IMG/VR virus record: IMGVR_UViG_3300028388_000731
Coordinates: 1-20,020 of that record
DNA length: 20,020 bases
DNA from: a virus
Strand: one strand, 5' to 3'
Shown here: piece by piece, positions 7,811 to 19,948 of the stretch
Layout of the letters: every line of letters begins with the position of its first letter
How positions within the stretch are numbered: position 1 is the first letter of the stretch
Translations under genes and position numbers: made by a program
Notes under the pieces: generated by a model
The model's input: only the letters and a program-made list of their open reading frames with translations
Databases searched by the model: none
What the model was told of the DNA's origin: nothing

Positions 7811-8794
7811 ATGGGTAATCCCGTCCTTAAGTATGAATCAGGCCAAACGGCCTATTCCTTTGAAGAAATGACAGACAGTGGAGATCAGACTACGTTTTCC
7901 GCGTCCTTCTCGCCTATCTCCCGAGTCAGCGAGCCAACGATTGCGCCGTATGGCCTGAAAACTGGCGGCGTCATCACTCCCACCGGCGCGAATGACGAAG
8001 TAAGCGTTGCGGCGCTGACGGTTGTTGCTCCAGGCATGACGGGCGCAGACTCCGATGGTGTGGTGTCGGTAGCCTCCGACACCGTGACGATCACTCGCGG
8101 GTTGACTACGGACACGCACAACATTACCAGCATCACGGTGGATAGTTCGGGCGCTATCGTGGCTGTGTCTGGCACGGACTCCACGGCGTTCAGCGAAACC
8201 CGTGGCGCTGCTGGTGGTCCTCCGCTAATTCCCGTTGGCAGTGTTGAGATCGGGCAAGTACGCACGACCTCTATCACGGCGGGTGCGATTCTGGCTGCTG
8301 AGATATTCCAGTCGCCTGGGTTGCATCAGGAGCGATCAGATCAACCGATCTGGACCACCAACTACGCGACCGGCCAAGTGGTGTTCGCCGAAGCACTGCC
8401 CGCCATCCACACTGGCGGCGTTGCCAAGAAGGTCTACATTAAGGGTTCGACTCCGATCTTCTCCAATGTGCCGAAAGCGAGCGATTGGGTGCCCGCAGAG
8501 ACAACGTACAGCGTCACCTCTACGGCCACTTACGACGGCGCAATTGGTGCCAGCAGCGCGAGCCTGGGTCAGGGTTCATTCTCTATGATTATGGAGACTG
8601 GAATAGCTGACCCGATCTTGTCGCAGAAGGGCAAAAACATCTGGTTTAAGTTCTTCCCTGACCGCGACCAGACCACGCCCTATCAGTTGACTCAGGGCAT
8701 TTTCGGCGTGTCCCGGTCATATGAGACTGACGGTCAGGTCAATGTATCCTGTACCGTTTCCGCTGCGTCTGAATCGTCTGACATTGCATCCTGA
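7811..8794 (+). CDS. Major tail tube protein
   Basis: This protein polymerises into the tail tube. Its 327 residues are rich in Ser, Thr, Gly and short strands. Features include SVEIGQVRTTSITAGAILAA near the middle and MIMETGIADPILSQKGKNIWFKFFPDR near the end. Residues 55-120 (GVITPTGANDEVSVAALTV, DTVTITRGL) look like an inserted beta domain, so the protein is longer than lambda gpV (246). A strong TAGGAGG lies nine bases before the ATG, as expected for an abundant structural protein. The stop shares one base with the chaperone start (TGATG). Confidence 0.8.
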   Translation: MGNPVLKYESGQTAYSFEEMTDSGDQTTFSASFSPISRVSEPTIAPYGLKTGGVITPTGANDEVSVAALTVVAPGMTGADSDGVVSVASDTVTITRGLTTDTHNITSITVDSSGAIVAVSGTDSTAFSETRGAAGGPPLIPVGSVEIGQVRTTSITAGAILAAEIFQSPGLHQERSDQPIWTTNYATGQVVFAEALPAIHTGGVAKKVYIKGSTPIFSNVPKASDWVPAETTYSVTSTATYDGAIGASSASLGQGSFSMIMETGIADPILSQKGKNIWFKFFPDRDQTTPYQLTQGIFGVSRSYETDGQVNVSCTVSAASESSDIAS

Positions 8795-9258
8795 TGGACG
8801 TACAGCGATTCCTGAATGCCTCCCTCGTTATGAGGGAGGAGCCTGTGCCCGCCCCTGAGCTTGCCGAGTTCTTCGGTGACGAGCCTGCCGAGTGGACCGT
8901 GCGCGGTCTTACTGGTGCAGAGCTTGCCCGATGTAATGAAGCAGCGGAGTCGGGCCGTAATTTTCAGTCCATCGTTGACGCTATCTCGAAGGGCGAAAAA
9001 GCAGAGGCGATCCGCAAGCTGGCCGGTGTGCCGGGCAAGGATGTGCCCGCAGACATCTCCCGCCGCATTCAAATGTTGGTAGAGGGGTCGGTTGACCCTG
9101 TGCTTGATGAGCAGTCGCGTGAGGTGGCGGTAAAGCTATCCGAGACGCACCCTACGCTGTTTTTCACGCTGACCAATAAAATTCTGTCTCTGACAGGGCA
9201 GGGTGCTGAAGCGGGAAAGCGCAAGCCCTCTGGAAAGACCAAGGCTTCCGCAACCTGA
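8794..9258 (+). CDS. Tail assembly chaperone, short form (G-like)
   Basis: This 154-residue protein is the zero-frame product of the frameshift pair. It should bind the tape measure protein before tube assembly and be absent from the finished virion, as lambda gpG is. It is acidic and helical (ELAEFFGDEPAEWTVRGLTGAELARC), with a basic Gly/Lys tail encoded after the slip site. Its place between the tail tube and the tape measure is diagnostic. The start ATG overlaps the previous stop by one base. At codons 141-142 the sequence G GGA AAG allows a -1 shift into the long form. Confidence 0.85.
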   Translation: MDVQRFLNASLVMREEPVPAPELAEFFGDEPAEWTVRGLTGAELARCNEAAESGRNFQSIVDAISKGEKAEAIRKLAGVPGKDVPADISRRIQMLVEGSVDPVLDEQSREVAVKLSETHPTLFFTLTNKILSLTGQGAEAGKRKPSGKTKASAT

Positions 9259-9401
9259 TCTATCTGTGCGCGGACAAGGGGCGTTTTCTCTATGAGGCGC
9301 GCCCCGATCTTTTCCCAGAGGGCCGGGTTACAGATTTAGAGCTAGAGGTCTGGTCAATCTACTACGCAGAGAGAAACCGCGAGATAAAAAAGCATGTCTG
9401 A
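8794..9401 (+). CDS. Tail assembly chaperone, -1 frameshifted long form (G-T-like)
   Basis: Reading zero frame to 9219, slipping back one base and continuing to the TGA at 9399-9401 gives a product of about 202 residues. The added part (about 60 residues) starts AQALWKDQGFRNLIYLCADK and continues RPDLFPEGRVTDLELEVWSI to end NREIKKHV. It has no start codon of its own and no stop until 9401, and its composition is protein-like. It fills the otherwise gene-less interval before the tape measure and overlaps that gene by eight bases. In lambda the T domain recruits the tube protein to the tape measure-G complex; the same is inferred here. Confidence 0.88.
9213..9219 (+). promoter_or_regulatory. 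Programmed -1 frameshift slippery site
   Basis: GGGAAAG is positioned as G GGA AAG relative to the zero frame, the same heptamer in the same phase as the lambda G/T site. The zero-frame stop is 37 bases downstream. A second GGAAAG at 9232-9237 lacks the leading G and is a poor alternative. Confidence 0.87.
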
Positions 9402-12024
9402 CGCAAAACGCACTATTGATATTGTATTCAATGGCGTAGACAAGACGGGCGCGGCTGTCCAAGGGGCTTTGCGGAATACCAGTAACCTTGCTTCTGGCGT
9501 CCAGTCGGCCACGCAGCCATTTGCGAATGCCGCTGCTGCTGCAGTCAAGTACGAAGCGGCGCTGATTGCCACGGGCGCGGCTATTACTGCGTTTTCAATC
9601 AAGGCGGCGAGCGACTTTGATTCTGGGTTCCGCGAGATCGCAACGCTTATTGACGAGCCTGCAGCGTCGCTGAACAACTTTCGTCAGGCGGTCCTTGATT
9701 ATGGTGCCGATAGCGCATTCAGCCTGGAGCAGGTAAACACCGCGGTCTATAACGCCATTTCGGCGGGCGTTGACTATACAGAATCGCTCGATGCTGTGAC
9801 GCAGGCTGAGAAGCTCGCCATTGCGGGGAAAGGCGATCTAGACTCCACACTAAAGCTGTTGGTGTCCAGCCTCAACGCTTACGGCCTGGAAACCGACAAG
9901 GCGGGGCAGTTTTCGGACGCGCTGTTTTCAACAATAAGACAGGGCCAGACCACGCTCCCCGAGTTGAATGCTTCCCTGCAGGGCGTCACGACATCTGCCG
10001 CATCCCTCGGCGTCCCATTCGAGGAAGTTCTAGGCGCGCTGTCTGCACTGACTTCTACTGGCGTCCCCACTTCGCAGGCTGTCACGCAGATCAATGCTGT
10101 ACTGACGGCGCTGCTAAAGCCTTCATCGCAGGCTGCAAATCTCGCGGCAGACCTGGGCATTCAGTTTAACGCCACGGCTGTAGAGTCACAGGGGTTGTCG
10201 GGCGTCCTCAATAGCGTTAGAGAGGCTACTGGCGGCAGTGCCGAGCAGATGGCAATTCTGTTTGGCAGGCAGGAGGCCATCAAGGGTTCCATGTCCCTTA
10301 CTGGACAGGCGGCACAGGCGTTTGCCGCTAACCTTGATGAGTTGCAGGACTCCGCAGGCGCGACAGAGGCGGCTTACGAGAAGCTGGCTGGCAGTTTTGA
10401 GAACGCCACCGGTCGACTGTCGTCATCCTTTGCCGCGCTTGGTGTTGCCATAGGCACGCCGTTACTTGATGACGCAGGCGGCGTTGCTGATGCGCTTGGG
10501 AATGTTCTGGGCGCGCTTTCTGATTCGTTCAATCAGGGCGAACTATCACAGATAACAAAGTTTATTGAGTCTGAATTTTCTGGCCTGTCTGAAGTGCTAC
10601 AGGGTGTTGCTGAGGCGCTGCCCGCTGCGCTCTCGCAGGCTGATCTATCTGGTTTCACCGATGGGCTGACTGCTGTACGGGATGCACTCACATCGTTGTT
10701 TGGTGATCTCGACATTACCGATGTAAACGATCTAGCGAGGGCACTTGAGTTCGTTGGCGATGCGTTCAACGGGCTTTCGCAGTTCTCGGCTGGCGTGATT
10801 GAGTCGTTTGGCCCCCTCCTACAGTATTTTGCCGATCTTGCGGAGAAGGCATCGCAGGGAGGCGATGGGCTGCGCGATCTTGGCAATTCGTTTGGTATAG
10901 CATCCCAGGTCAACATATTTTCCGGTGCGCTGGCTGGCGCGGCTGATGCGGCGGTATCAATCGCTGCAGTGTTGTATGTCGGCAGCAAAGGAAAGGGCGG
11001 CTTGATTTCTGGTTTGCGACTCCTCCCAGGCGCGCTGACTGGAGTTGTAAGCCTGCTTTCCGGCCCCGCTGGGCTTTCTGTTGCAGCGGCTGGCGCAGGC
11101 GTTGCGCTTGGCAGCTTCTTGAACACGCTGCCGGAAAAAGCTGGCTTTGACAGCATCAGTACAAATGTTGGGGATCTCGTAGATAGGTTCAGCGGCCTTG
11201 GCGATCAGGCGGATGATCTGGTCGCAACAGAGTTCTATCCAGCCAGCCTGGACCAGTTCCGCGATATTGAACTTGCGGACAATATCTCAAGTGTTGTGCG
11301 CTCTCTGCTTGGGTTTGAGGATGTAGACCCGGAGCCACTTGATAATTTCGTCGAAAGCCTAAAGGACGGCGGCGGCGCTATTGATGATGTCACCGGGAAG
11401 CTCGATGACAACGTAGCGACCTTGCTTGCCTACCCTGACGACATCAAGCCTGCGTCTGATGCCATGAAGCGTCTAGGCGCTGATGGGCAAGAATTGACTG
11501 GCAATTTCTCTGTCGTTGAGTCTGGGGCGCGCAAGACGGTATCCGCGCTGGATAGCCTGGCCGGGGCGTCAGAGGATTTGCGGGCAGAATTCGCCATTGC
11601 CGCACTGGAGTCTGCGGGTGCGATCCGTGTGGCAGAGATTGAGGCGGACGCAGATCGAGCGGTGGCTGCATTCGATGCCATCGCCTCATCGGTTACGAGT
11701 ACCGGCGATGTGCTAGGCGATCTTTACGGTGCGCTGAGCGACTCCAACATACGCAAGCTCGACAAGCTCGACATCACAAAGCAGATCGAAGCAGAAACCG
11801 AGGCTCGGCAGCGGCTACTAAAGCAGCAGGAAAAGCTGACTGCTGCTGAAATCAGGGTTGCCAATGCCCGCGCCGACTCTCTACGTCGCGGTGATGCGCT
11901 GATCAAGATTGACGGCGCGGGCCTGCAGCCGCACTTAGAAGCCTTCATGTGGGAAATTCTGGAGGCGATTCAGGTGCGTGTTAATGCGGACGGGCAAGAG
12001 TTGCTTCTAGGTGTCGGCGCGTGA
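9394..12024 (+). CDS. Tape measure protein, TP901 type
   Basis: This protein sets tail length and sits inside the tube. Its N-terminal half carries the TP901-type tape measure core: AASDFDSGFREIATLIDEP, then SLEQVNTAVYNAISAGVDYTE, and further Ala/Ser-rich helices to about residue 350. A hydrophobic Gly/Ala-rich stretch at about residues 520-575 could enter a membrane during DNA ejection. A coiled-coil-like helix (EAETEARQRLLKQQEKLTAA) comes near the end. The last 35 residues (DGAGLQPHLEAFMWEILEAI, then QVRVNADGQ) have the pattern of a tape measure C-terminus that binds the tail tip. At roughly 0.15 nm per residue, 876 residues suggest a tail of about 130 nm. The start overlaps the frameshift product by eight bases. 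Confidence 0.93.
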   Translation: MSDAKRTIDIVFNGVDKTGAAVQGALRNTSNLASGVQSATQPFANAAAAAVKYEAALIATGAAITAFSIKAASDFDSGFREIATLIDEPAASLNNFRQAVLDYGADSAFSLEQVNTAVYNAISAGVDYTESLDAVTQAEKLAIAGKGDLDSTLKLLVSSLNAYGLETDKAGQFSDALFSTIRQGQTTLPELNASLQGVTTSAASLGVPFEEVLGALSALTSTGVPTSQAVTQINAVLTALLKPSSQAANLAADLGIQFNATAVESQGLSGVLNSVREATGGSAEQMAILFGRQEAIKGSMSLTGQAAQAFAANLDELQDSAGATEAAYEKLAGSFENATGRLSSSFAALGVAIGTPLLDDAGGVADALGNVLGALSDSFNQGELSQITKFIESEFSGLSEVLQGVAEALPAALSQADLSGFTDGLTAVRDALTSLFGDLDITDVNDLARALEFVGDAFNGLSQFSAGVIESFGPLLQYFADLAEKASQGGDGLRDLGNSFGIASQVNIFSGALAGAADAAVSIAAVLYVGSKGKGGLISGLRLLPGALTGVVSLLSGPAGLSVAAAGAGVALGSFLNTLPEKAGFDSISTNVGDLVDRFSGLGDQADDLVATEFYPASLDQFRDIELADNISSVVRSLLGFEDVDPEPLDNFVESLKDGGGAIDDVTGKLDDNVATLLAYPDDIKPASDAMKRLGADGQELTGNFSVVESGARKTVSALDSLAGASEDLRAEFAIAALESAGAIRVAEIEADADRAVAAFDAIASSVTSTGDVLGDLYGALSDSNIRKLDKLDITKQIEAETEARQRLLKQQEKLTAAEIRVANARADSLRRGDALIKIDGAGLQPHLEAFMWEILEAIQVRVNADGQELLLGVGA

Positions 12025-16965: not shown

Positions 16966-17433
16966 TCACGCCGCTTTTGCGGCCACACAAACAAGGCGGA
17001 CGTTGCCAACGACATAGCCCTTGTCGTTGTCTATCCTGTCAATGCTGGGGGCAAGCGGCGCTCTATTGGACCTGGGCTCGCGAGACAGTGAGAATGGCGT
17101 TGATGTTACTGCGCACTGCCACCCTTGAGAGTAAGCGATGCTAAAAGCATCATGCAGGCCAAGGGAAAACACTCGCTTCCTTCGACCTCTTGAGTTCCTG
17201 TAAGCCTGCAAAAATATCCTCTGAAGGTACGCTCGCAGTTCTTTTCCTTCCTTTTCTGGCACCCACTTTGAGTGTTCCGCCAGCAACGCGAGGCGTATGG
17301 CCTCGTCTCTATCAGCGCTTAACTTCCTCCACCGCCTGCGCTTCACTAGGTAGTAAGCATCTCGCTTAAAGTAGACGCACTTTGGTAGTCCGTTGCTCTG
17401 TGTTTTGCTCTGTGGTGCTGACTTCTCTGCCAT
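16966..17433 (-). CDS. HNH-like endonuclease with integrase-like N-terminus
   Basis: This 155-residue basic protein has two parts. Residues 15-55 (GLPKCVYFKRDAYYLVKRRR, then WRKLSADRDEAIRLA) resemble the N-terminal DNA-binding part of some phage integrases. Residues 95-150 carry an HNH-like pattern: WQCAVTSTPFSL, then PSIDRIDNDKGYVVGNVRLV, with Asp132, Asp135 and Asn144 as likely active-site residues. The protein stops six residues after the core (VAAKAA), where relatives I recall usually run on, so the C-terminus may be cut short. I chose the ATG at 17433 because GGAAGGG stands seven bases before it; a longer frame starts at 17478. The gene lies on the tail side of attP, is leftward, appears less GC-rich than its neighbours, and may be a mobile or accessory gene. 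Nuclease activity is unproven. Confidence 0.6.
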   Translation of the reverse strand: MAEKSAPQSKTQSNGLPKCVYFKRDAYYLVKRRRWRKLSADRDEAIRLALLAEHSKWVPEKEGKELRAYLQRIFLQAYRNSRGRRKRVFSLGLHDAFSIAYSQGWQCAVTSTPFSLSREPRSNRAPLAPSIDRIDNDKGYVVGNVRLVCVAAKAA

Positions 17434-17464
17434 TTTGCGCCCTTCCCGCCTCGCCAACCTCTTG

Positions 17465-17470
17465 ATTATA
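17465..17470 (-). promoter_or_regulatory. Putative -10 box for the HNH gene
   Basis: The minus strand reads TATAAT exactly, 31 bases before the chosen ATG. No convincing -35 is found 16-18 bases upstream (sequence near CACCTC), so the promoter is weak or needs an activator. Confidence 0.4.
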
Positions 17471-17492
17471 CAGCACACAGAAAGACAGAGGT

Positions 17493-17520
17493 GGACGGGG
17501 GAGGATTTCGAGTCCCGTCC
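17493..17520 (+). repeat. Inverted repeat overlapping attP
   Basis: GGACGGG (17493-17499) and CCCGTCC (17514-17520) are exact reverse complements separated by 14 bases. The right arm lies within the tRNA-like core, so the pair could be core-type integrase binding sites. Confidence 0.5.
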
Positions 17521-17529
17521 GCTCCGCCA
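17507..17529 (+). other. attP core matching the 3' end of tRNA-Asp
   Basis: The segment begins TTCGAGTCCCG and ends CCGCTCCGCCA. It equals the T-loop, 3' T-stem and acceptor strand with CCA of a gammaproteobacterial tRNA-Asp (E. coli differs by T for one C in the acceptor). Upstream sequence does not continue as a tRNA, so this is a phage-borne copy that would restore the tRNA on integration. It lies seven bases beyond the integrase stop at 17536, the usual place. Phage genes on both sides indicate attP, not attL or attR. Confidence 0.85.
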
Positions 17530-17535
17530 TATCCA

Positions 17536-18604
17536 TCAACGACTTACGTCGTTTTCTGCCGCATCTGACCCGTGTTTGACCTGTGGCGTGTCGAATCGAG
17601 ACCGGTCCCGCCGCGTCGAGTACTCCTCGATGAACTCGCTGTAGGTTCGCAGGAACATCTCCGCGCTGTGGCCGAGCTCCTTGGCCGCGTCTGCCGAGCT
17701 CCGCCGCCCGCGTGTGCCGGCAGGTATACGGAATACGGTACGGAATGCCGAGCCGCTTGTGGGCCCGCATCCATGCCTGGTTGAAGTCATCCGTATCCAG
17801 CATGGGCCGCCCGAAGCTGTTCACGAAGATGTGCCCCTTGGCGAAACGCGAGGGCAGGGCGTTGATGTAGGGCCGCGCCCATGAAGGCACCAGAACGCGC
17901 CGCCGCTCGCAGGTCTTGGTGGTCGGCTCCAGCCGGCGGCGGGTGATCTGCTTGCTGATGTCGAGCTCCTCGCCGTCGTAGTCCGCCCAGGTCAACCCTA
18001 GGGCCTCTCCGGGGCGAAGGCCGGTGGAGAACAGCAGAGCGAAGTACGCCTGTTCCTGCCCGCTGAGTGCCGCCAGCAGCCGGTCGCGTTCTGCCGGCAG
18101 GTAGCGGTCCACCCGAGGCTTCTGATGGCGCTTGACCTTGATGCCGGCCACGGGGTTGGGCGTGATCTCGGCGTGGTCGAAGATGCCCCGCAGCGGGATC
18201 AGCAGGTTGCGCTTTGTCTTTCCCGACACGTCGATGGCGGACAGCGCCCGCTTGATGTCGCGCTGGCTGATCTCGTTGATGGGCTGACCGGCAAGCGCAG
18301 GCATCCAGTGCCGGTTGATGATGTTCTCGTAGCTCAGACTGGTGGAGCGCTTTGCGTCCAGCGTGGTCATGTATTCCTGGGCGACGTGCTCGAACATGGA
18401 TACGCCTTCGTCGTCATCCTCATGCAGCGCCAGGCCCAGCTTCGCCCGCGCCAGCAGCGCTTCGCGCCGCGCTACCGCATGGGAGAGGTGACGCTTGCCG
18501 AGATCGCCCGCGATGATCTCCGAGTACGCGACCTTGCCGTGCCGCCAGATTCGGATTTCGAGCCCTCGCCCTCTGGGTCGGATGCCACTAGGCCATCCAG
18601 CCAT
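17536..18604 (-). pseudogene. int: Tyrosine integrase, frame broken near the C-terminus
   Basis: This would be the site-specific recombinase for the adjacent tRNA-Asp attP. It begins MAGWPSGIRPRGRGLEIRIW, an arm-binding domain of the GIRxRG type. A SAM-like core-binding domain (about residues 68-150) and the catalytic domain follow. Arg197 (STGLRPGEALGLTW), Lys230 and Arg296 (PYTCRHTRAAEL) are present. After codon CTC at 17698-17696 the frame is lost. Taking one extra base (17695) restores ADAAKELGHSAEMFLRTYSE, with the catalytic Tyr codon at 17641-17643, and the stop at 17536. About seven residues expected between RHT and LGH are also missing, consistent with a net loss near 20 bases. Without repair the frame runs past attP to 17366 with no tyrosine. 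The ATG at 18604 lies inside the excisionase gene, which it overlaps by 133 bases. A sequencing or assembly error is the alternative. Confidence 0.85.
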
Positions 18605-18756
18605 TCGTCTACCCTCGCAACATGGCACAGTGTCGTGTGACCTTTTACCACATACTCCCAGCCCCGCCGCCAGTCGCGCTTCATCCAGCCGTCGATCGTG
18701 CCTTCGCTGACGCCGATGCGAGAGGCCATGGCGGCCTTGCTGATGAGGGGGCTCAT
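18472..18756 (-). CDS. Excisionase-like HTH protein
   Basis: This 94-residue basic protein has an N-terminal helix-turn-helix: MSPLISKAAMASRIGVSEGT, then IDGWMKRDWRRGWEYVVKGH. TTLCHVARVDEWLDG follows, the wing and last helix seen in Xis/AlpA-type proteins. It probably bends DNA at the att site and steers the integrase towards excision. The last 30 or so residues are Ser/Arg-rich and are encoded in the 133 bases shared with the integrase start, so their function is doubtful. The ATG at 18756 shares four bases (ATGA) with the small upstream gene. Confidence 0.75.
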   Translation of the reverse strand: MSPLISKAAMASRIGVSEGTIDGWMKRDWRRGWEYVVKGHTTLCHVARVDEWLDGLVASDPEGEGSKSESGGTARSRTRRSSRAISASVTSPMR

Positions 18757-18851
18757 GCCGCCCACAGAACAGCACCACACAGCAGCACGCCCGTCAGGAC
18801 GCCGTAGGAATAGGCCGTCCAGCCGCACAGGTCATCGTGCCGGCGGCTCAT
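18753..18851 (-). CDS. 32-residue putative membrane protein
   Basis: A short frame reads MSRRHDDLCGWTAYSYGVLT then GVLLCGAVLWAA. A charged N-terminus is followed by one hydrophobic segment (about residues 13-32), so it could sit in the inner membrane with its N-terminus in the cytoplasm. Both ends overlap their neighbours by ATGA (18848-18851 and 18753-18756), and GGGG lies just upstream. This exact tiling argues that it is a real gene. Its function is unknown. Confidence 0.65.
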   Translation of the reverse strand: MSRRHDDLCGWTAYSYGVLTGVLLCGAVLWAA

Positions 18852-19084
18852 GGGGTGTCCCCGCCCGAGAGGGCGTCGTCAATGTCAAACAGGGGCTTGA
18901 TTGCAGGCTGGTTTTTCCATGCCGGGTGCGCCCATCGCTGGCTGTAGGCGAATTGTTTTATTACCTCCCTCAGCCGCTGGCTCTCTGCTTCAAGCTGCTC
19001 GACTTCATTGGCGATTGCTGCCAGTGTTTCGCGAGAGGTCGATTGCTGGGCAATAGCCCGTAACTCACTTCCTATTGCGCTCAT
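18848..19084 (-). CDS. Small early protein with coiled coil
   Basis: This 78-residue protein is not of a family I recognise. Residues 10-45 form a heptad-like helix (ETLAAIANEVEQLEAESQRL, then REVIKQF), followed by a Trp/Pro segment and an acidic end (DIDDALSGGDTP). The ATG at 19084 shares its A with the upstream TGA (TGATG); an overlapping GTG at 19087 is the other possible start. The ribosome site GGGAG lies in the last codons of the upstream gene. A structural partner or regulator of early functions is possible but unsupported. Confidence 0.7.
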   Translation of the reverse strand: MSAIGSELRAIAQQSTSRETLAAIANEVEQLEAESQRLREVIKQFAYSQRWAHPAWKNQPAIKPLFDIDDALSGGDTP

Positions 19085-19111
19085 CACTCACTCCCGCCCG
19101 CGAGGGCTTTG
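19080..19111 (-). repeat. Gene-junction repeat, copy 1
   Basis: A 32-base sequence identical to 19370-19401. Read on the minus strand it encodes KALAGGSE, the stop and the overlapping ATG of the next gene, and contains GGGAG as ribosome site. Confidence 0.9.
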
Positions 19112-19374
19112 TATTTGTCCTTTGCGATGCGCCAATCTTCTTTCCAGTCCGCGAATTCGTTGGGGTGGGTGGCAGGCCAGCCGGACATTGAGCACATCAG
19201 TGCTTCGGCCCAAAACAGCAGACGCGCCTGATCGTCACAGATGGCCTTTAGTCTGTCGCGCTCATCAATGAGTTTCTGTATCGACTCGCTTCGGTCTCTG
19301 TTCTTCAAGCCGCGCAGACAAAGGTCGTGATGATCGCTGCCGGGAAATGCTCCGCACCGGGGACATCTACTCAT
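19084..19374 (-). CDS. Small early protein with zinc-ribbon-like N-terminus
   Basis: This 96-residue protein is of unknown function. CPRCGAFPGSDHHDLC (near residues 4-19) gives three cysteines and two histidines that could bind zinc. A charged helix (SIQKLIDERDRLKAICDDQA) and a Trp-rich second half follow. It ends KALAGGSE, a tail shared exactly with the next gene upstream in the operon. The start ATG is coupled to the previous stop by TGATG. Confidence 0.7.
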   Translation of the reverse strand: MSRCPRCGAFPGSDHHDLCLRGLKNRDRSESIQKLIDERDRLKAICDDQARLLFWAEALMCSMSGWPATHPNEFADWKEDWRIAKDKYKALAGGSE

Positions 19375-19401
19375 CACTCACTCCCGCCCGCGAGGGCTTT
19401 G
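19370..19401 (-). repeat. Gene-junction repeat, copy 2
   Basis: Identical to copy 1 over 32 bases and starting 290 bases away, at the next gene boundary. It has the same tail, stop/start overlap and ribosome site. Confidence 0.9.
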
Positions 19402-19712
19402 CCTAGCGTTTCTCTGGCAATCGCTGCCGGATCGGCACTCATGCTGTCGTCGTTGCCATCCCATGCGTCGATGATTTGATACAGGCCCTGTACAAGCATC
19501 GCTTTCTGGCGCTCTACTGACGCCACTTCAGTACCGCGCTTTTCAAACTCTCGCGCCCAATCCTCCCGCGCCTCGGCAAGCTGTTGGCGAAGCCCCTTAA
19601 TCTCACAATGTTGCTCGGCCAGCAGCAAACCCAGCTCTGCGATTCGGTCGCAATAGTGCGAGCGTTCCAAGCACGTCAAGTACGTCTCGTAGTCCGCTGC
19701 CGGGTCATCCAT
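19374..19712 (-). CDS. Small early coiled-coil protein
   Basis: This 112-residue protein of unknown function is mostly helical. Residues 20-75 form a likely coiled coil (DRIAELGLLLAEQHCEIKGL, then RQQLAEAREDWAREFEKRG), followed by a hydrophobic helix (AMLVQGLYQIIDAWDG). It ends GKALAGGSE. The ATG at 19712 overlaps the upstream TGA by one base, with AAGGAG nine bases before it inside the upstream gene. The LAEAREF/LAEAREDW segment is shared with the next upstream gene, so the two may be distant paralogues. Confidence 0.7.
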   Translation of the reverse strand: MDDPAADYETYLTCLERSHYCDRIAELGLLLAEQHCEIKGLRQQLAEAREDWAREFEKRGTEVASVERQKAMLVQGLYQIIDAWDGNDDSMSADPAAIARETLGKALAGGSE

Positions 19713-19741
19713 CACTCACTCTCCTTGCCCGCGAGGGCTTT
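19710..19741 (-). repeat. Gene-junction repeat, diverged copy 3
   Basis: Shares CATCACTCACTC (19710-19721) and GCCCGCGAGGGCTTT (19727-19741) with the other copies, but differs by extra bases in the middle, giving AGKESE and a better AAGGAG ribosome site. Confidence 0.8.
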
Positions 19742-19948
19742 CACTATCGGGCTTTGTCTTAACGCTTGTGCGAGTCTGTCTGTAGTTTCGTTCTGCGGCC
19801 ACATGCTGCCTGTGAGGCTATCGCAGAACTCAATAAACTCCCGCGCCTCGGCAAGCTGCGCTCGCAGCCTCTCCTGCTCATTCTCCCCGCCGCACCGGGC
19901 GCATCGGTATCCTGGCCATGTCTGTCGGTCAATCGCTGTGTCAGTCAT
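19712..19948 (-). CDS. Small early protein with Cys pair
   Basis: This 78-residue protein is of unknown function. It has one CARCGG knuckle near residues 16-21, a short helix (EQERLRAQLAEAREFIEFCD) and the end VKALAGKESE, a variant of the tail in the two genes downstream. GGAGG lies nine bases before the ATG and belongs to the last codons of the upstream gene. It could be related to Ead/Ea22-like accessory early proteins of lambdoid phages, but that is only a resemblance in size, place and tail. Confidence 0.65.
   Translation of the reverse strand: MTDTAIDRQTWPGYRCARCGGENEQERLRAQLAEAREFIEFCDSLTGSMWPQNETTDRLAQALRQSPIVKALAGKESE

Follow-up and report, generated by a model that had tools for sequence, protein, structure and literature searches.

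It has long been asked whether the mosaicism of phage genomes arises through recombination at short conserved borders or through random illegitimate joining; to our knowledge, mosaic borders with recognizable sequences are rarely found. Short conserved boundary sequences of mosaic phages are an established proposal, cited as such in two studies (PMC3029335, PMC2327257). In mycobacteriophage Island3, gp68 and the product of the upstream gene 67 have 18 C-terminal residues, corresponding to about 50 bp, in common, and the authors read this likeness as recombination between short repeats at the gene end (PMC3029335). In T4-type phages, cassettes known as PeSLs lie between small genes and have been proposed to serve modular shuffling (PMC4503421). 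Finally, start-associated sequences (SAS and ESAS) have been described in Cluster K mycobacteriophages (PMC3203893) and Cluster EF Microbacterium phages (PMC7302621). The SAS is a short repeat with a Shine-Dalgarno (SD) sequence that precedes several non-structural genes, and the authors mention such repeats as possible recombination targets (PMC3203893, PMC7302621). It is 13 bp long, has the consensus GGGATAGGAGCCC, and is positioned 3 to 7 bp before starts, usually after gaps of over 50 bp (PMC3203893).

We analyzed a viral DNA fragment of 20,020 bases, here called the window, which belongs to a temperate tailed phage. The plus strand carries genes for the terminase, portal, capsid, and tape measure. 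After these virion genes, the minus strand carries an HNH-type endonuclease, a tyrosine integrase, and an excisionase-like DNA-binding gene (18472 to 18756; phrog_66, E = 7.8e-6, scanned as 18472-18828). The reading frame of the integrase (17366-18604) is broken near 17710, and its catalytic C-terminal part (AAKELGHSAEMFLRTYSEFIEEYS) carries on in another frame (ORF 17536-17790), which points to an error in sequencing or to an integrase that is disrupted. A 32-amino-acid ORF read from the sequence (MSRRHDDLCGWTAYSYGVLTGVLLCGAVLWAA; 18752 to 18850, minus strand) is ATGA-coupled on both sides. Directly upstream of xis/int, at the end of the fragment, are four small minus-strand genes, P1 to P4. 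P4 (19712 to 19948) encodes 78 amino acids, with a CxxC motif, an LRAQLAEAR coiled coil, and the C terminus KALAGKESE, and has no family match. P3 (19374 to 19715; 112 or 113 amino acids, from a start codon at ATG 19712 or GTG 19715) combines an LRQQLAEAR coiled coil with KALAGGSE, and P2 (19084 to 19377; 96 or 97 amino acids) combines a CPRC knuckle with KALAGGSE; no relative of either was found. P1 (18848 to 19087; 78 or 79 amino acids) begins with MSAIGS and ends with DDALSGGDTP. None of the small genes matched a family in PHROGs or Pfam. When viral contigs, plasmids, and bacterial genomes were searched, the small proteins, the integrase, and the junction had no relatives there, and none turned up in phage records (matches at E ≥ 2).

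Three consecutive borders in this array carry a junction module, each on the minus strand. The 32-mers w3 (19080 to 19111) and w2 (19370 to 19401) are identical at 32 of 32 positions and read AAAGCCCTCGCGGGCGGGAGTGAGTGATG. The third copy, w1 (19710 to 19741), has a net 3-nt in-frame insertion and runs AAAGCCCTCGCGGGC, then AAGGA, then GAGTGAGTGATG, with the same 15-nt and 12-nt blocks as w2 and w3, and the form found at the three borders is AAAGCCCTCGCGGGC(AA)GGGAGTGAGTGATG. All three modules encode a terminal KALAGGSE or KALAGKESE, an SD site (GGGAG, as in w3, or AGGAG), and a TGATG stop/start overlap; the gene after w3 starts with ATGAGCGCAATAGG. No copies of the 32-mer are expected by chance (100 dinucleotide shuffles), and GTGAGTGATG occurs three times in the window, always at module borders, against an expected 0.075. 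Reading the three borders therefore bears out the original prediction of two identical 32-mers and one diverged copy at consecutive gene borders, each with a protein tail, a ribosome site, and TGATG. The tail itself had been given as ALAGGSE or AGKESE, which begins one residue too late; the shared tail starts with KALAG.

A fourth border, w4 (18847 to 18878, minus strand; tail DDALSGGDTP), overlaps by ATGA instead of TGATG and is 66% identical to w3. It was predicted to be a decayed form of the module. That w4 is related to the modules is supported, as w4 and the other window borders have GCCCTC.CGGGCGGGG in common. Its description as decayed is less secure, since w4 resembles a border in another phage, G004 (GATGACGCCCTCGCGGGCGGGGATAAG in locus L057, tail DDALAGGDK; 23 nt at 91%, E = 0.046), and a reading as another subtype fits at least equally well.

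The same module was found in an otherwise unrelated phage. G001 (IMGVR_UViG_3300028388_001251) is a 39-kb contig that encodes a podovirus-like portal and head protein, a family A DNA polymerase, and a helicase, and its virion and replication genes differ from those of the window phage. When the two were compared by blastn, the four best matches were all junctions (E = 6e-8, 2e-7, 1e-4, and 1e-3), and all non-junction similarity was at chance level (E ≥ 0.05). Before its polymerase, G001 has a tandem array of small genes with three GTGAGTGATG borders, against 0.08 expected. Our comparison set is small and its loci were found via motif searches, and independent support comes only from features outside the search pattern; two of these three borders were not required by the search. 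Identity between the window and G001 reached 86 to 100% across the 14 core bases and dropped to about 25% in the DNA flanking the module. Across the junction pairs, 29 to 32 of 36 positions were identical, compared with a mean of 14.6 of 36 and a maximum of 22 among 352 cross-record pairs of control SD+TGATG junctions. As the original prediction would have it, different genes are present between the same repeats in the two phages, and conservation is far higher in the repeat DNA than in the bodies of the genes. Two further GAGTGAGTGATG borders were found in G003 (L059). The polymerase ORF of G001 (L003 1436-4309) appears to be split by an in-frame intein-like insert; inside it, in another frame, is a 245-amino-acid HNH-like ORF (L003 2979-3716).

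Comparison of individual borders revealed that w3 corresponds to the left half of the third G001 border (gC) joined to the right half of the second (gB), with an exact match over 36 nt. The best natural junction matches of w3 in G001, at 28 nt and 22 nt, are both shorter than this hybrid. Among 756 gene-start pairs, none had 8 nt in common after ATG. The composition of w3 is as would be expected from crossing-over at the common core of the gC and gB borders.

It is probable, in our assessment, that DNA-level junction modules of approximately 28 to 36 nt lie at the borders of small coupled genes and enable gene exchange, and that the shared tail is mostly a by-product. Each module contains the 3' codons of the upstream gene, a strong SD sequence, and the overlapping stop and start for the next gene, and a ribosome ending one gene would start the next via this overlap. 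Recombination at the module, whether homologous or through short homology, could delete, duplicate, or replace a gene. Termination, ribosome binding, and coupling would survive such an event because the module copies are identical or nearly so within a genome and are common between phages. The TGA triplets (GAGTGAGTGATG in the window; RTGAGTGA in G004) place stops in two frames beside the next start, which would explain a clean end in either frame, and the module could take upstream genes in more than one frame. The C-terminal peptide would then be mostly a by-product of the module. We infer the movement of genes by recombination from mosaic sequence patterns; the coupling is likewise putative, and the genes are presumably early. 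The phage, plasmid, viral, and genome collections searched yielded no close relative of the window phage, and for this reason no gene gain or loss between modules was seen directly.

An alternative is plain paralogy, in which a CxxC/coiled-coil gene was duplicated in tandem and diverged, with the C terminus and ribosome site as its slowest-changing part. Several similarities within the gene bodies are consistent with this. The LRxQLAEAR coiled-coil segment of P3 (19563 to 19597, minus strand) is 83% identical over 35 nt to 19838-19872 in P4; CxxC knuckles occur in P2, P4, and two G001 proteins; P4 matched the G001 protein g_9037 at E = 1e-5 in a 13-protein comparison; and a 30-nt RIAELEA segment recurs in four G004 genes. 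Because of the coiled-coil similarity, we dropped the idea that the small genes are fully unrelated, and the common segments imply that some duplication with divergence, or exchange of segments, has also taken place. Along the gene bodies, the similarity is partial, in CxxC and coiled-coil segments. Against paralogy, no homology was detected between G001 g_9451 or its neighbors and the flanking genes of the window. Moreover, the bodies beside the modules are at background identity, yet 28 to 32 nt are identical, including synonymous sites. Together with the reading of the G004 module in two frames, described below, these observations make paralogy a rather unlikely explanation. The proposal that identical borders could allow small genes to be exchanged is supported in part: different genes are found between the same modules, but they are not a random set.

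DNA and peptide can be told apart in G004, an 87-kb contig (L057) from the same metagenome as G001 that contains an array of nine tiny coupled genes at 8622-11035. Module sequences differ between phages, and that of G004, GAGGACAAGAGCGRTGAGTGA, is present in this record in five copies, every one of them at a border. In each case, the start of the next gene falls 13 nt into the module. The upstream genes read it as a terminal GGQER in one case (at 8800) and as a terminal EDKSDE or EDKSGE in the other four, and the 21-mer at 8800 is identical to the one at 9104, although consecutive genes read the two in different frames. A single 21-mer used in two frames, at a constant distance from the next start, indicates that the DNA and not the peptide is repeated in G004. 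This frame independence is a feature of G004; all window tails share one frame. In one G004 gene, the window-type sequence AAAGCCCTAGCGGGC directly precedes the module, out of the KALAG frame, and is read ESPSGQ.

Some borders look stacked. At L057 8787-8823, 9893-9927, and 10070-10102 in G004, window-type CTTGCGGGC, CTAGCGGGC, or GGGAGTGAG is found directly before an EDKSGE-type module. In the window, stacking is also suggested upstream of w1 (19735-19760, minus strand), where AAAGCCCGATAGTGA looks like part of another module (compare GGAGATAGTGAGTGATG in G001). In addition, one G004 array gene opens with a 27-nt tandem duplication (VSDSKRWDIVSDSKRWDI, L057 10095-10148) that repeats its GTGAGTGA start.

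The module could instead be a regulatory site, recognized by an RNA- or DNA-binding protein or acting as a special initiation signal like the SAS, with each copy maintained by selection and not spread by recombination. The conservation extends 15 nt upstream of the SD sequence, beyond the needs of ribosome binding, and Cluster K mycobacteriophages offer a precedent. On the other hand, gB and gA of G001 are without the upstream half of the module, and different phages have different module sequences. RNA structure in the module was considered and rejected, as the predicted folds were no better than those of shuffles (z = -1.3 to +0.9). A regulatory site is therefore unlikely.

We consider it very improbable that the KALAGGSE C-terminal peptide is itself functional, as a degradation or interaction tag, even though three proteins of the window and one of G001 end in the same peptide. 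To separate DNA from peptide conservation, 2.9 million viral contigs were scanned with a degenerate pattern covering all synonymous codons (GCN YTN GCN GGN GGN AGY GAR TGATG). With a leading lysine required, the scan gave zero matches; without it, there was one match, at L003 in G001, which is DNA-identical to the window over 28 nt, from AAGCCC to TGATG. The chance of independent codon agreement at A-L-A-G is approximately 0.007, given the codon usage of the window phage and G001. Thus, no synonymous variants of the SE-type tail were found among the viral contigs. G004 genes use a different frame for the corresponding DNA, and the tail varies (KESE, GGDTP, MGGSE). A looser scan recovered the G004 DDALAGGDK border and, in G005, KALAGGEE with synonymous changes (CTA and GCA codons). 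Since G005 keeps KALAGGEE with other codons, some constraint does act on the peptide. The suggestion that the tail is a by-product of a DNA module is accordingly favored by the two-frame 21-mer of G004 and by the DNA identity of the only other SE-type tail found, and is qualified by the G005 variant. Most matches to a loose pattern, GCCCTCGCGGGC...GTGATG, were chance occurrences in the wrong context, with only L003, L015, and L034 at gene borders, and a GGNGGGAGTGAGTGATGA scan returned mostly chance sites apart from L003 and L005/L007.

Convergence on an optimal SD+TGATG sequence, or an assembly artifact, is almost certainly not the explanation: GGGAGTGAGTGATG by itself does mark a few other gene borders, besides occurring at chance sites, but the control junctions were far less similar, the common part includes non-SD codons and the first codons of the next gene, and the copies are internal, at gene borders, and in different genes.

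A broader and more tentative possibility is that a frame-tolerant docking module organizes cassette-like arrays of tiny genes and provides the main trade route for these genes among unrelated temperate and lytic phages. Such a module might comprise tail codons, an SD sequence, two-frame stops, and an overlapping start, with a sequence specific to each phage. The border hypothesis of mosaicism becomes directly testable at these loci because the border is the only common DNA of two otherwise unrelated phages, its halves appear recombined, and a third phage reads it in two frames. These findings also caution that when small phage proteins have identical C termini, the cause can be a DNA module and not protein function.

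In agreement with the boundary-sequence proposal, the short identity at the borders falls off into non-homologous genes on both sides, and different genes are found between the same borders in G001 and the window, one pair having weak coiled-coil similarity. The likeness of gp67 and gp68 in Island3 follows the same logic, in that border homology permits gene addition or loss. Unlike the Island3 case, however, the present module is found on three to four consecutive borders, includes the SD sequence and overlapping start of the next gene, recurs in phages without other DNA similarity, and is used in two frames in G004. PeSLs are similar in being regulatory cassettes between small genes with a proposed role in shuffling. 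They are transcription elements composed of an early promoter and a stem-loop, whereas the present module is a translation stop/start junction: the genes overlap, leaving no intergenic space, no fold exceeds that of shuffles, and no promoter-terminator features were seen in the module. The SAS is likewise a short conserved SD-containing repeat at gene starts, but the window module has a different sequence from that of Cluster K, overlaps the coding end of the upstream gene, and couples genes by TGATG. The module thus differs from the known cases as a coding, coupled, array-forming junction, frame-tolerant in G004, that is common to otherwise unrelated phages.
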